From Peribacillus muralis (GTDB taxonomy: Bacteria; Bacillota; Bacilli; Bacillales; DSM-1321): a stretch of 64,000 bases of DNA. A program made the position numbers and the translations under genes. The DNA is taken from positions 3,463,051 through 3,527,050 of the forward strand of contig NZ_CP017080.1 in the NCBI RefSeq assembly GCF_001645685.2, in the 5' to 3' direction. The notes beneath the pieces were generated by a model. It did no database searches. It was not told the origin of the DNA and worked only from the letters and a program-made list of their open reading frames with translations. Positions 2,695 to 48,971 of this stretch are shown here, piece after piece. The first letter of the stretch is position 1. Every line of letters begins with the position of its first letter.

Positions 2695-2935
2695 AGTTAG
2701 CCACCTCCAAAGATATTGGCGAATACGAATATTTGAATCAATTCGGTCACGCTCACAACTCGCTTACAGGATATAATCATAATAAAAAAGTGTGGATGCA
2801 TGCTGCACCCACACTGATAGACTCATTCAGAAAGATCCAAATAATCAAATCATGACCTGTTAACTGCATTGCTTGCGTCAACCAGGTGAGAAGCGGGTGC
2901 TTCTTCTTTTCCTCAAACACGTATTCAATTCACTT
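2695..2935 (-). ncRNA. L20-type attenuator leader of infC-rpmI-rplT
   Basis: The leader of about 240 nt contains a terminator hairpin at 2783-2816 (minus strand AGTGTGGGTGCAGC, loop, ATGCATCCACACT, then TTTTTTA). An upstream GCACCC (2895-2900) is complementary to GGGTGC in the terminator 5' arm (2805-2810), giving a mutually exclusive antiterminator. This is the layout of the L20 leader family, in which L20 binding favours termination. No other feature is seen in the 2695-3041 stretch apart from the promoter. Confidence 0.8.
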
Positions 2936-45264: not shown

Positions 45265-46620
45265 TCATGATCTGTCCAGCAGCTGGCACGTTAACATTGC
45301 CTTTCCGACGAGTTTGCCTTGGTTAAACACCTCGACATCCACTTTTCCGAATTTACGTCCTACGTCAAGAACACGGGGGTGTATTTCAAGCGTACTGTCA
45401 ATTTGGACTGGCTTAATGAAATAAATCGTCATATTCTCTACGACCAAATCACCTCGTTTGTAGCTTCTCAGTGCCCGGTTAGCCGAATCCGTAACCAATG
45501 TCGTAAACACACCGCTGGAAATCGTCCCAAGATAATTGGTCATTTGCGGTGTGACGCCATACTTATACACTTCCTCACCCTTACCCCGATTCGACGTCAT
45601 CACAAGCTGACTCGTAATCGTATCGTCGATCGTTTCGCCAACCTGTGGCTGCCTTTGGCTCATTTGCAGTGCCTTCAGCACATCCTGCCTGCTCACGATT
45701 CCTTGCAGGATATGACTGTCATTGACTACCGGGATCAATTCGATCCCTTCCCAAACCATCATATGTGCAGAAGAGGCCACACTCGTTTTATCACCGACGG
45801 TCATCGGATTTTTCGTCATCACCTTTTCGATGAGCGTCCACTCATCCTGACCGATGATATCCTTTGAAGTGACCATTCCTTGGACCTTCATATTGTCATC
45901 AACAACAGGAAAACGGCTATGCCCTGATTCCTGGTTGAGCTCGTGCCACGTCTGAACCTTATCACCAATCGTCAAAAAGGTCGTATCCTGAACAGGTGTC
46001 AAGATATCCTCCACGAGCAAGATTTCCTTTTTAATCAATTGGTCATAAATCGCCCGATTGATCATCGTTGCGACAGTAAAGGTATCGTAGCTCGTTGAAA
46101 TGACCGGCATTTCCAATTCATCCGCTAACCTTTTAACAGGCTCTTCCGTATCAAAGCCTCCGGTAATCAGCACCGCCGCCCCTGCTTTCAGCGCATGCTC
46201 ATGGGCCTGTGTACGGTTCCCGACGATCAGCAGATTTCCCGCACCTGTATATCTCATCATCGCATCGAGCTTCATTGCCCCGATGACAAATTTATTCAAT
46301 GTTTTATGAAGTCCCGTTTTACCGCCCAGAACTTGTCCTTCCACAATATTGACCACTTCGGCGAAAGTGAGCTTTTCAATATTCTCTTTTTTCTTCTTCT
46401 CAATACGAATCGTGCCTACCCGCTCGATCGAGCTCACATAGCCCTGATTCTCTGCCTCTTTAATGGCCCGGTACGCCGTTCCTTCACTAACATTCAATGC
46501 TTTCGCGATTTGACGGACGGAAATCTTCTCGCCAACCGGAAGCCCATCGATATGCTTTAATATTTGTTCATGCTTTGTAGCCAAGCGCTTCACCCTTTTC
46601 ACGGTATTCCTATTCCCCAT
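45265..46620 (-). CDS. ytoI: CBS/DRTGG/hotdog-domain regulator YtoI
   Basis: A 451-residue multidomain protein: an N-terminal helix-turn-helix (KISVRQIAKALNVSEGTAYRAIKEAENQGYVSSIERVG, about 32-70), a DRTGG domain (about 85-195), a CBS pair (about 200-320, VVDDNMKVQGMVTSKDIIG; VVNDSHILQGIVSRQDVL) that should bind adenine nucleotides, and a C-terminal hotdog domain (about 330-445). The fusion suggests a nucleotide- and acyl-CoA-sensing DNA-binding protein; targets are unknown. Matches B. subtilis YtoI. Confidence 0.9.
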   Translation of the reverse strand: MGNRNTVKRVKRLATKHEQILKHIDGLPVGEKISVRQIAKALNVSEGTAYRAIKEAENQGYVSSIERVGTIRIEKKKKENIEKLTFAEVVNIVEGQVLGGKTGLHKTLNKFVIGAMKLDAMMRYTGAGNLLIVGNRTQAHEHALKAGAAVLITGGFDTEEPVKRLADELEMPVISTSYDTFTVATMINRAIYDQLIKKEILLVEDILTPVQDTTFLTIGDKVQTWHELNQESGHSRFPVVDDNMKVQGMVTSKDIIGQDEWTLIEKVMTKNPMTVGDKTSVASSAHMMVWEGIELIPVVNDSHILQGIVSRQDVLKALQMSQRQPQVGETIDDTITSQLVMTSNRGKGEEVYKYGVTPQMTNYLGTISSGVFTTLVTDSANRALRSYKRGDLVVENMTIYFIKPVQIDSTLEIHPRVLDVGRKFGKVDVEVFNQGKLVGKAMLTCQLLDRS

Positions 46621-46655
46621 TATAAGGTCAAAGAGCCCCGTTTATCAAACAACTA

Positions 46656-46880
46656 CTAATATTGGCGCAGCCTTTTGTGTTCCACCTGCCGTTTCAGCTT
46701 ATGCTTTTTAGGCGAATATAGAATGCCCGTCAAATTCCCCGCCACCGCCAGCATCGCAAACAACAACCAACAGCCTGCAAATAAGCCCCTCAGCCCCCCG
46801 CTTTCCAATGACAAGCGCGGCACGGCATAATACAGCATCACACCGCATAATAACAAACACAGCAACAACCTCTGCTTCAT
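46656..46880 (-). CDS. Small membrane protein
   Basis: A 74-residue protein with two hydrophobic helices (LLLCLLLCGVMLYYAVP at about 4-20, and GLFAGCWLLFAMLAVAGNLTGILY at about 32-55) and a basic tail (KKHKLKRQVEHKRLRQY). AAGGGGGGATTGG precedes the ATG at 46880, a strong ribosome binding site. No family recognised with confidence. It lies just upstream of ytoI on the same strand, 35 bp away, and may be co-transcribed. Confidence 0.65.
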   Translation of the reverse strand: MKQRLLLCLLLCGVMLYYAVPRLSLESGGLRGLFAGCWLLFAMLAVAGNLTGILYSPKKHKLKRQVEHKRLRQY

Positions 46881-47101
46881 CCAATCCCCCCTTATTTTTC
46901 ATCTATTCATTTTATGCCTGCGAACGAAAAAAAGACTGACCTGCATGAACGAGAATTACTGGTCTATATGTCCATGTATCGCGCACCCTATAAAATGAAG
47001 CGCCATAACGTGGATTTAATGGTTCACGAGCCTTTACGAGGATTTCTTCGTTTTCATGCAAAAGAGGGTGGAACTTCAGGCGCAAAGCACGAGCTATGCA
47101 T

Positions 47102-47973
47102 TCTTTTTTTCGGCCTGCACTCAACTTAATTCAACCTGCCTCCTCTTTTTTTCGACCTGCATTCAACTTAATTCGACCTGCACCCACTTTTTTCGGCCTG
47201 CACTTAGCTTAATTCGACCTACTTCCACTTTTTTTCGGCCTTCACTCAACTTAATTCGGCCTGCATCCTCTTTTTTTCGGCCTGCACTCCACTTAATTCG
47301 ACCTACACCCACTTTTTCGGCCTTCACTCAACTTAATTCGACCTACACCCACTTTTTTTCGGCCTTCACTCAACTTAATTGGGCATGCATCCTCTTTTTT
47401 TCGGCCTGCACTCCACTTAATTCGACCTACACCCACTTTTTTTCGGCCTTCACTCAACTTAATTCGGCCTGCATCCTCTTTTTTTCGGCCTGCACTCCAC
47501 TTAATTGGGCCTGCATCCTCTTTTTTTCGGCCTGCACTCCACTTAATTCGACCTACACCCACTTTTTTTCGGCCTTCACTCAGCTTAATTCGACCTACCT
47601 CCACTTTTTCGGCCTGCACTCAACTTAATTCGACCTGCCTCCAGCTTAATTCGGCCTGCACTCAGCTTAATTCGACCTACACCCACTTTTTTTCGGCCTT
47701 CACTCAACTTAATTCAACCTACACCCACTTTTTCGGCCTGCACTCAACTTAATTCGACCTACCTCCACTTTTTCGGCCTGCTTTCAACTTAATTCGGCCT
47801 TCACTCAGCTTAATTCGACCTGCCTCCACTTTTTCGGCCTGCACTCCACTTAATTCGACCTACACCCACTTTTTTTCGGCCTGCACTCCACTTAATTCGA
47901 CCTGCCTCCACTTTTTTTCGGCCTGCACTCCACTTAATTCGACCTGCCTCCTCTTTTTTTCGGCCTTCACTCA
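47102..47973. repeat. Array of 42 alternating 20-22 nt half-units
   Basis: Two related half-units alternate: type A, (A)CTTAATTCGACCTRCMYCC, and type T, ACTTTTTTTCGGCCTGCACT(C). I counted 42, alternating almost strictly, with two A-A exceptions (near 47640 and 47800). Type T has T-runs of mostly 5 or 7 bases, giving 20 or 22 nt. Because a pair is close to 42 nt, translations of both strands look open and periodic (RIKLSAGRKKVGVG-like), but the frame breaks repeatedly and no ribosome binding site is convincing. I regard it as non-coding. 46881-47101 and 47974-48080 hold no gene that I can support. Confidence 0.9.
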
Positions 47974-48084
47974 ACACCAGCCTACTCCACCTCATTAAAA
48001 CTGCAGGCTCAAGGATTTCTTTATCATGTTAGAGTGGATTGGAATGTTCAAGCCCGCAGGAACAGAAAGAAAAAAGCAATAATA

Positions 48085-48135
48085 AAAAAATACAGCCAAA
48101 CTCCATTATTATCGAGTTTGGCTGTATTTTTGCAG
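48085..48135 (-). terminator. ytkL terminator
   Basis: Minus strand AATACAGCCAAACTC and GAGTTTGGCTGTATTTTT form a 15 bp stem 35 bp past the ytkL stop, followed by a T7 tract. Confidence 0.9.
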
Positions 48136-48168: not shown

Positions 48169-48849
48169 TTATAGGTCAATTTCATCTCCTGGTTCCATGA
48201 TGAATCCATTTCCTTCTTCAAGCAGGTCAAGGAATCGTTTGGGATCCTGCTTGATGACAGGGAAAGTATTGTAATGGATTGGCACGACTTGTTTCGCTTG
48301 AAGGAATTTCGCCGCCAGTGCCGCATCTTCAGGTCCCATCGTGAAATTGTCGCCGATCGGCAAGAAAGCCAGATCAATCGGATGGCGCTCCGCAATCAAT
48401 TTCATATCGGAATATACCGCCGTATCGCCGGCATGATAAATGGTTTTGCCTTCTATCGTCAATAACACGCCAGCAGGCATCCCTAAATATATGATTTGTC
48501 CATCACCCGCATTGAAGCCCGTACCATGAAAGGCAGGCGTCAGTTTCACTTTTCCAAATTCGAACTCAAAAGCTCCGCCGATGCTCATTCCATGAGTCCG
48601 GACTCCTTGTGCACCGAAGTAATCGGCAAGCTCTGCAATGCCAATGACAAGTGCATCATGTTTCTTTGCCAATTCAACCGTGTCACCTACGTGGTCATTA
48701 TGCCCATGCGTCAGGATGATCACATCCGGTTTAACCTCGTCAACCTTCAAATCGGTTAGTGCATTTCCATTAATGAACGGGTCGAACAAAATCGTTTTTC
48801 CATTCGTTTCTACTTTTACGACTGCATGTCCATGAAAAGATACTTTCAT
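48169..48849 (-). CDS. ytkL: Metal-dependent hydrolase (UPF0173, metallo-beta-lactamase fold) YtkL
   Basis: A 226-residue metallo-beta-lactamase-fold protein. Metal ligands are visible in [11 protein letters not shown] (HxHxDH), AFHGTGF, and [11 protein letters not shown], and a C-terminal HYNTFP completes the site. The natural substrate of the UPF0173 family is not established. Start at ATG 48849 ([11 protein letters not shown]), which aligns with the family; an ATG seven codons upstream is also in frame. Divergent from the M24 peptidase gene. Confidence 0.93.
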
Positions 48850-48971
48850 TTGATGATGCTCCCTTCCCATACCCCATAATTTTGATTCGATAAGCTTTCT
48901 TAGGACTTTCCCATTTACTATGCTTTTAAATATTGCTAAGGTAATTATATCTTATCAATGGAGGTATCGTC

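Follow-up and report, generated by a model that had tools for sequence, protein, structure and literature searches.

The gap between ytoI and ytkL in Peribacillus muralis holds an array of 42 direct repeat units, each about 21 nt long, at 47102-47979 of the window (the whole stretch of 64,000 nucleotides analyzed here). The same genome carries at least 30 arrays at no fewer than 25 loci, amounting to at least 439 units and at least 9259 bases, as found by core-pattern searches after which the places were read. Arrays of this kind are already published; without prior report in the literature searched are a core that recurs across genera, a measured constraint on that core, and comparisons of orthologous slots. 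We lean slightly towards reading the window array as non-coding, helically phased direct sites for a putative DNA-binding protein, grown by two-unit blocks and with GG.CG under selection. The initial annotation had named a protein-binding array among its possible readings, and the sequence comparisons below are consistent with it.

Structure and surroundings of the window array

The features of the locus, in window coordinates, are as follows.

45265-46620, minus strand: ytoI, with DRTGG, CBS and thioesterase domains and a winged-helix start (Pfam; name from the initial annotation)
46621-47000, no strand: left flank, aligned at about 88% with L009 and L010, the closest relatives measured (alignment)
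46656-46880, minus strand: 74-aa ORF before ytoI, without Pfam match (ORF list and Pfam)
47102-47979, minus strand: array, core GG[A/C]CGAA followed by TTAA or AAAA (Tandem Repeats Finder and unit chain)
47109-47150, minus strand: example two-unit block of 42 nt, one TTTTCG-type and one AATTCG-type half-unit (unit list)
47980-48079, no strand: non-repeat stretch from array to hairpin, with little or no match in relatives (alignment)
48090-48127, minus strand: hairpin followed by a T-run, probable ytkL terminator (by eye)
48169-48870, minus strand: ytkL, metal-dependent hydrolase with beta-lactamase fold (PF12706, PF13483; name from the initial annotation)

Core-to-core steps in the window array are 21 nt in 35 cases, 19 nt in five and 20 nt in one (n=41); units had been described as 20-22 nt, which is right as to a length of about 21 nt, while the actual steps are 21 and sometimes 19 nt. 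Tandem Repeats Finder gave periods of 21, 42 and 124 for 47103-47975 with scores of 638, 941 and 1022, and the maximum score among 50 dinucleotide shuffles was 58, confirming that the 42-unit array is real. It is composed of 22 AATTCG-type and 20 TTTTCG-type units that alternate in 38 of 41 steps, a value not reached in any of 100,000 label shuffles (maximum 36), so the near-strict alternation claimed earlier holds. T-runs in the T-type units are mostly of the two lengths noted before (seven in 14 units and five in five, with six in one). Spacer similarity is 0.70 between units two apart versus 0.40 between neighbors, which bears out the proposed duplication in pairs.

The longest ORFs within the array are 190 aa (plus strand, 47056-47628, with a start that precedes the array) and 108 aa (minus strand, 47293-47619). 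Neither crosses it, and the ORF scan found no frame across the whole array on either strand, as the initial annotation had stated. That the array is a protein-coding repeat or encodes a phase-variable small protein is therefore hardly credible. Units of 21 and 42 nt do hold a frame locally and give rise to these two ORFs, but no frame survives the 19- and 20-nt steps, the periods of sister arrays are 20, 41 and 61, the 108-aa frame has no Pfam match, and none of 259 candidates matched at E <=0.001.

The array lies downstream of ytkL and upstream of the 74-aa ORF, presumably ytpI, which precedes ytoI. Its reported placement between ytoI and ytkL is thus correct for the gap but passes over this ORF. 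About the first 340 bases of the left flank also align with most other relatives, and right-flank matches in relatives start near 48075-48084. The terminator scan did not list the hairpin at 48090-48127. In L012 and L017, the ytoI-ytkL gap contains GC-rich DNA in which the words GAGACTCCTGC and GAAAGC(G/T) were seen by eye and which looks like a dispersed intergenic element; a short piece similar to it occurs in the right flank of the window array at 48034-48058.

The array family of the genome and its published class

On the GG strand the family consensus is GG[A/C/T]CG[A/G]ATTA, usually with TA in front. Over 30 arrays, each position of GG.CG carries about 2 bits, the A/G position and ATTA carry 0.9-1.4 each, and positions 12-21 carry at most 0.3. 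Chain L211, on the minus strand and without an exact core, was excluded from the consensus, gene-context, constraint and unit counts. Family steps (n=409) are 21 nt (239), 20 nt (154), 19 nt (10) and others (6), with a mean of 20.58 and with 20-21 nt in 393 of 409. Spacer identity between arrays of the genome is 0.295, making spacers array-specific. Units resemble the next but one more closely than their direct neighbor in 25 of 30 arrays (for instance 0.80 versus 0.26 in L004b), so the alternation in the window array is the usual higher-order repeat of the family, such as two-unit block duplication would leave. The pattern is absent from five short arrays (L003, L202a, two at L208, and L210), and array L001 repeats at three units.

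Gene contexts, taken from ORFs of at least 90 aa and not from annotation, comprise 19 tandem, eight convergent and three divergent gaps for the 30 arrays. Such ORFs overlap six of the arrays, and most arrays lie between genes. At the tandem loci the core strand matches the gene strand in 9 of 16, as expected for an orientation-free DNA site. A replication-strand bias was considered and rejected: one pattern subset suggested that the core lies on the leading strand, and the fuller array list mixes both strands. No DnaA motif or DnaA box was found in the three stretches tested for an origin.

Several further observations were made on the same chromosome. Eighteen of the 25 array loci found have positions above 2.5 Mb on this chromosome of 4.92 Mb, the region noted being 3.2-4.4 Mb; this half was searched unevenly, and arrays past 3.51 Mb come from a different set of core-pattern searches. 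The gene to the right of array L004b contains 10 copies of a 27-nt tandem repeat (locus L004, 5561-5830), which could encode a 9-residue protein repeat. A second 21-nt family, with the core TTTACTCGCGARTTT, is also found at G000:C1:3216661-3216712 and 4466837-4466888. It occurs in 6 of 36 genomes of the genus, this one included, and is commonest in G030, which has 29 pairs of this core versus 9 GGNCGAA pairs. The ACTCGCGAGT form of this core is palindromic.

The window array falls within the class of 20-21-nt Bacillus tandem repeats, of which 781 arrays in 176 genomes were described by Subirana and Messeguer in 2021 (PMC8161180). The statement in the initial annotation that no element of this form is described is accordingly withdrawn. 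The class is typical of the "simplex" group, now Peribacillus, with B. simplex and B. muralis rich in it; its authors noted doubles of 40-41 nt and a unit length equal to two helical turns, found no sequence conservation between species, called the class "enigmatic" and of unknown function, and proposed a polymerising nucleoid protein or a small RNA (PMC8161180, preceded by the same authors' 2019 survey, PMC6749651). They define it by a 20-21-nt unit in at least four repeats, one length (+/-1 nt) common to 60% or more of the repeats, and a position outside coding genes. The window array has 42 units, with 36 of 41 steps at 20 or 21 nt (counted from our unit chain, theirs by SATFIND), and it lies outside coding genes. 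They also describe several arrays per genome with a common short sequence, which here are the 30 arrays with core GGNCGRATTA. Likeness to the class thus extends over unit length, 40-41-nt doubles, non-coding position, several families per genome, a species-common short sequence and the genus group. In contrast to the species-specific sequences that the authors describe, the core found here spans genera, being common to several Peribacillus species, Mesobacillus and Cytobacillus, and its constraint has been measured. The main text of PMC8161180 gives no core for the simplex group. Literature searched by topic and by core letters contained no prior report of the core, its constraint or the slot comparisons; the supplementary tables of PMC8161180, which may list these arrays, stood outside that search. 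The 52-nt tandem repeats of the same paper are likewise dispersed, non-coding, constant in unit length and found in the same bacteria, but differ in unit length, and the core is not visible in the sequences of its Table 1.

These 52-nt repeats provide an argument for a transcribed non-coding RNA, such as a sponge that titrates an RNA-binding protein recognizing GGNCGAAUUA or UUCGNCC. The same authors' next paper (PMC8625621) reports satellite transcription in B. coagulans, and that paper, with PMC8161180, reports transcription of the 52-nt class. A sequence-specific RNA binder would keep a core too. We nevertheless consider this reading improbable. Structure on the two strands does not exceed that of shuffles (mean z -0.72 and -0.54 over 27 arrays; 0.2 and 0.5 for the window array), no promoter-like site occurs inside the window array, and array orientation is independent of genes. 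The Rfam scan of the window, judged at the gathering score, matched only the ribosomal protein L20 leader (RF00558, 79.8 bits, 2778-2914, minus strand) and nothing in the array.

Core constraint and orthologous slots

Deviations from the phase consensus were counted in the 16 arrays with at least 10 units. At GG.CG they amount to 34 of 1396 (2.4%), versus 394 of 2094 (18.8%) in spacers, and the core rate is below the spacer rate in all 16 arrays. The base between GG and CG deviates in 85 of 349 cases (24.4%). The ATTAW flank lies in between (171 of 1745, 9.8%) and is above the spacer rate at three arrays. Simulated arrays with 20% uniform change, passed through the same core-based detection (2214 of 6980 units kept), gave 15.1% for cores and 22.4% for spacers. 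Since the observed gap is far larger, we reject detection bias as its cause; nor can detection account for the free base inside the core.

The main rival to binding sites is a neutral satellite, in which slippage and unequal exchange make and homogenize the arrays, the core either promotes amplification as a pause or nick site or descends from one seed, and the cell derives no function. We regard this as possible but rather unlikely. Two-unit homogenization is itself a product of exchange and so fits such a satellite. Drift and homogenization alone, though, would be expected to let core and spacer vary alike, and common descent alone would not hold GG.CG while the middle base is free. A core required for amplification would still predict some recognizer.

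The form of the core also bears on a known regulator. The 0A box of Spo0A is TGNCGAA and agrees with GGNCGAA at six of seven positions, as would suit a decoy array for this protein. Among 388 cores whose other bases fit, however, 385 begin with G and 2 with T, so the T at the first position of the 0A box is not what the family carries; G stands at position 6 in a quarter of cores. A Spo0A decoy is therefore very improbable.

At the slot of the window array, the ytoI-ytkL gap was measurable in 28 relatives, and none of them has a GGNCGAA array there (26 without a core, two with one core); one locus without ytoI and six relatives that were assigned no locus were set aside. In G018 (L010) and G030 (L011/L239) the slot holds three units 20-21 nt apart with the other core, TTTACTCGCGARTTT, degenerate in G018. 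An assembly artefact, which the initial annotation had offered as a test, is unlikely because the array family is present in many genomes, yet the array itself is confined to this assembly among the genomes compared and its copy number is as assembled.

Other slots persist with differing copy number. Slot L001 has 47 units in our genome, 10 in G024, eight in G018, four in a P. muralis record and none in six, and its gap is 148 bp in G030 and about 3 kb with other sequence in seven relatives. Slot L207 has 18 units in our genome, 10 in the P. muralis record, four in G018, three in G031 and none in five, with only the right flank read in G004. Chains are thus found in only three of nine relatives at each of these slots, which, together with the missing window array, counts against binding sites, and the variable copy number at L001 is what a neutral satellite would show. 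Slot L004b, with 25 units in our genome, has a chain in eight of nine relatives, weak in G030 and none in the P. muralis record. The criterion was a lenient one (three units, two exact cores), and 0 of 77 control pieces had a chain.

In the seven relatives compared at L004b, core identity to our array is 0.87-0.99, while spacer identity is 0.28-0.38 versus 0.30 for unrelated arrays of our genome. Best-match spacer values of 0.55-0.60 in four of the seven slightly exceed the 0.50 of unrelated arrays, and certain relatives have spacers in common with one another (mean up to 0.62). At this slot our lineage thus retains the sites and their phasing, with spacers unlike those of the relatives. Common descent alone, as in a neutral satellite, would not give this combination.

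Distribution and possible role

A strict two-core pattern occurs in 13 of 36 Peribacillus genomes and has a reversed control of 0. Under a looser pattern, 11 of the 36 have at least 31 pairs and 25 have at most 20, a number that the reversed control never exceeds; the 25 genomes without arrays above control speak for a neutral satellite. G032 has 151 pairs under the looser pattern and one under an A/T-flanked pattern, so its units differ from the family consensus, which counts against a uniform core. Outside the genus, a survey of 397 genomes of the order gave numbers above the largest control (9) only for G102 and for four of the nine genomes of genus g63. The words listed for g63 genome G149 are those of named Mesobacillus loci, which suggests that g63 may be linked to Mesobacillus.

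Runs of at least four cores were found in at least 23 of at least 115 named stretches, and all 23 are from Peribacillus, Mesobacillus, Cytobacillus or Bacillus sp. Outside Peribacillus, the species are Mesobacillus selenatarsenatis, M. boroniphilus, Cytobacillus oceanisediminis and Bacillus sp. The core word recurs in Mesobacillus and Cytobacillus in the form GTGGTCGAATTA, and one further genus has GGGCGAAAT every 20 nt. No chains were found in the UBA9944, J37, Paenibacillus and Planococcus loci examined, and single core matches in other taxa look like chance. With the true core we obtained 28 runs versus at most one for any of 59 permutations, a control that is partly circular since loci were fetched by the two-core pattern. 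Some arrays in L103 (Mesobacillus selenatarsenatis) and L111 (Bacillus sp. ISL-41) alternate GTGGTCGAATTA with CCGCCAA units. Five units of the Mesobacillus-type core occur in L092, a record labeled Chryseobacterium sp. ISL-80, a Bacteroidota genus, and this organism label is probably wrong.

Fixed asymmetric contacts around a free base, an A/T-rich flank, two-turn spacing, occurrence in either orientation, mostly intergenic position and lack of promoter-like sites or of RNA structure beyond that of shuffles together fit a DNA-binding protein. Each unit of about 21 bp would be one asymmetric site, GG[A/C/T]CG[A/G]ATTA, with about two helical turns to the next; neighboring putative proteins would then lie on one helix face, where they could bind next to each other. 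Arrays may grow and shrink as two-unit blocks are exchanged or slip, leaving the alternation, while selection would hold the GG.CG contacts and spacers would drift and be homogenized within each array. The mean step of 20.58 counts against such phasing, as it loses exact phase over long arrays. We infer that the binding protein exists, that it targets DNA and not RNA, and that the arrays would mark or organize the chromosome and not regulate neighboring genes.

Direct repeats of about 20 bp, with one asymmetric site per two helical turns, are also found in the iterons of plasmid origins and in partition centromeres bound by ParR. Those are few, lie on plasmids and stand beside their own rep or par gene. 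The Peribacillus arrays share their repeat type and differ in being dispersed on the chromosome, with up to 47 units and variable spacers. The neighbors of the window array are ytoI, the 74-aa ORF and ytkL, with no cognate Rep or Par gene adjoining. LytTR-type regulators bind 9-bp direct repeats about 21 bp apart, as promoter pairs; the spacing of direct repeats is alike, but our arrays are long, have no tie to promoters and carry another core.

By analogy with these systems, the arrays may form a cross-genus Bacillaceae class of chromosomal centromere- or iteron-like arrays, a proposal that we put forward tentatively. A putative protein on cores two turns apart would mark or compact the chromosome at dispersed intergenic slots, of which some persist as spacers turn over. 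Lineages could then exchange the core word, GGNCGRATTA here and the second core in two relatives at the ytoI-ytkL slot. Coevolution of arrays and binding protein would lead one to expect such exchange. With the core defined and its constraint measured, the protein hypothesis becomes directly testable, and the core offers a pull-down bait with a clean control in which GG.CG is changed and the spacing kept. Copy numbers of 47, 10, 8 and 4 between species at L001 suggest a possible further use of the arrays as typing markers.
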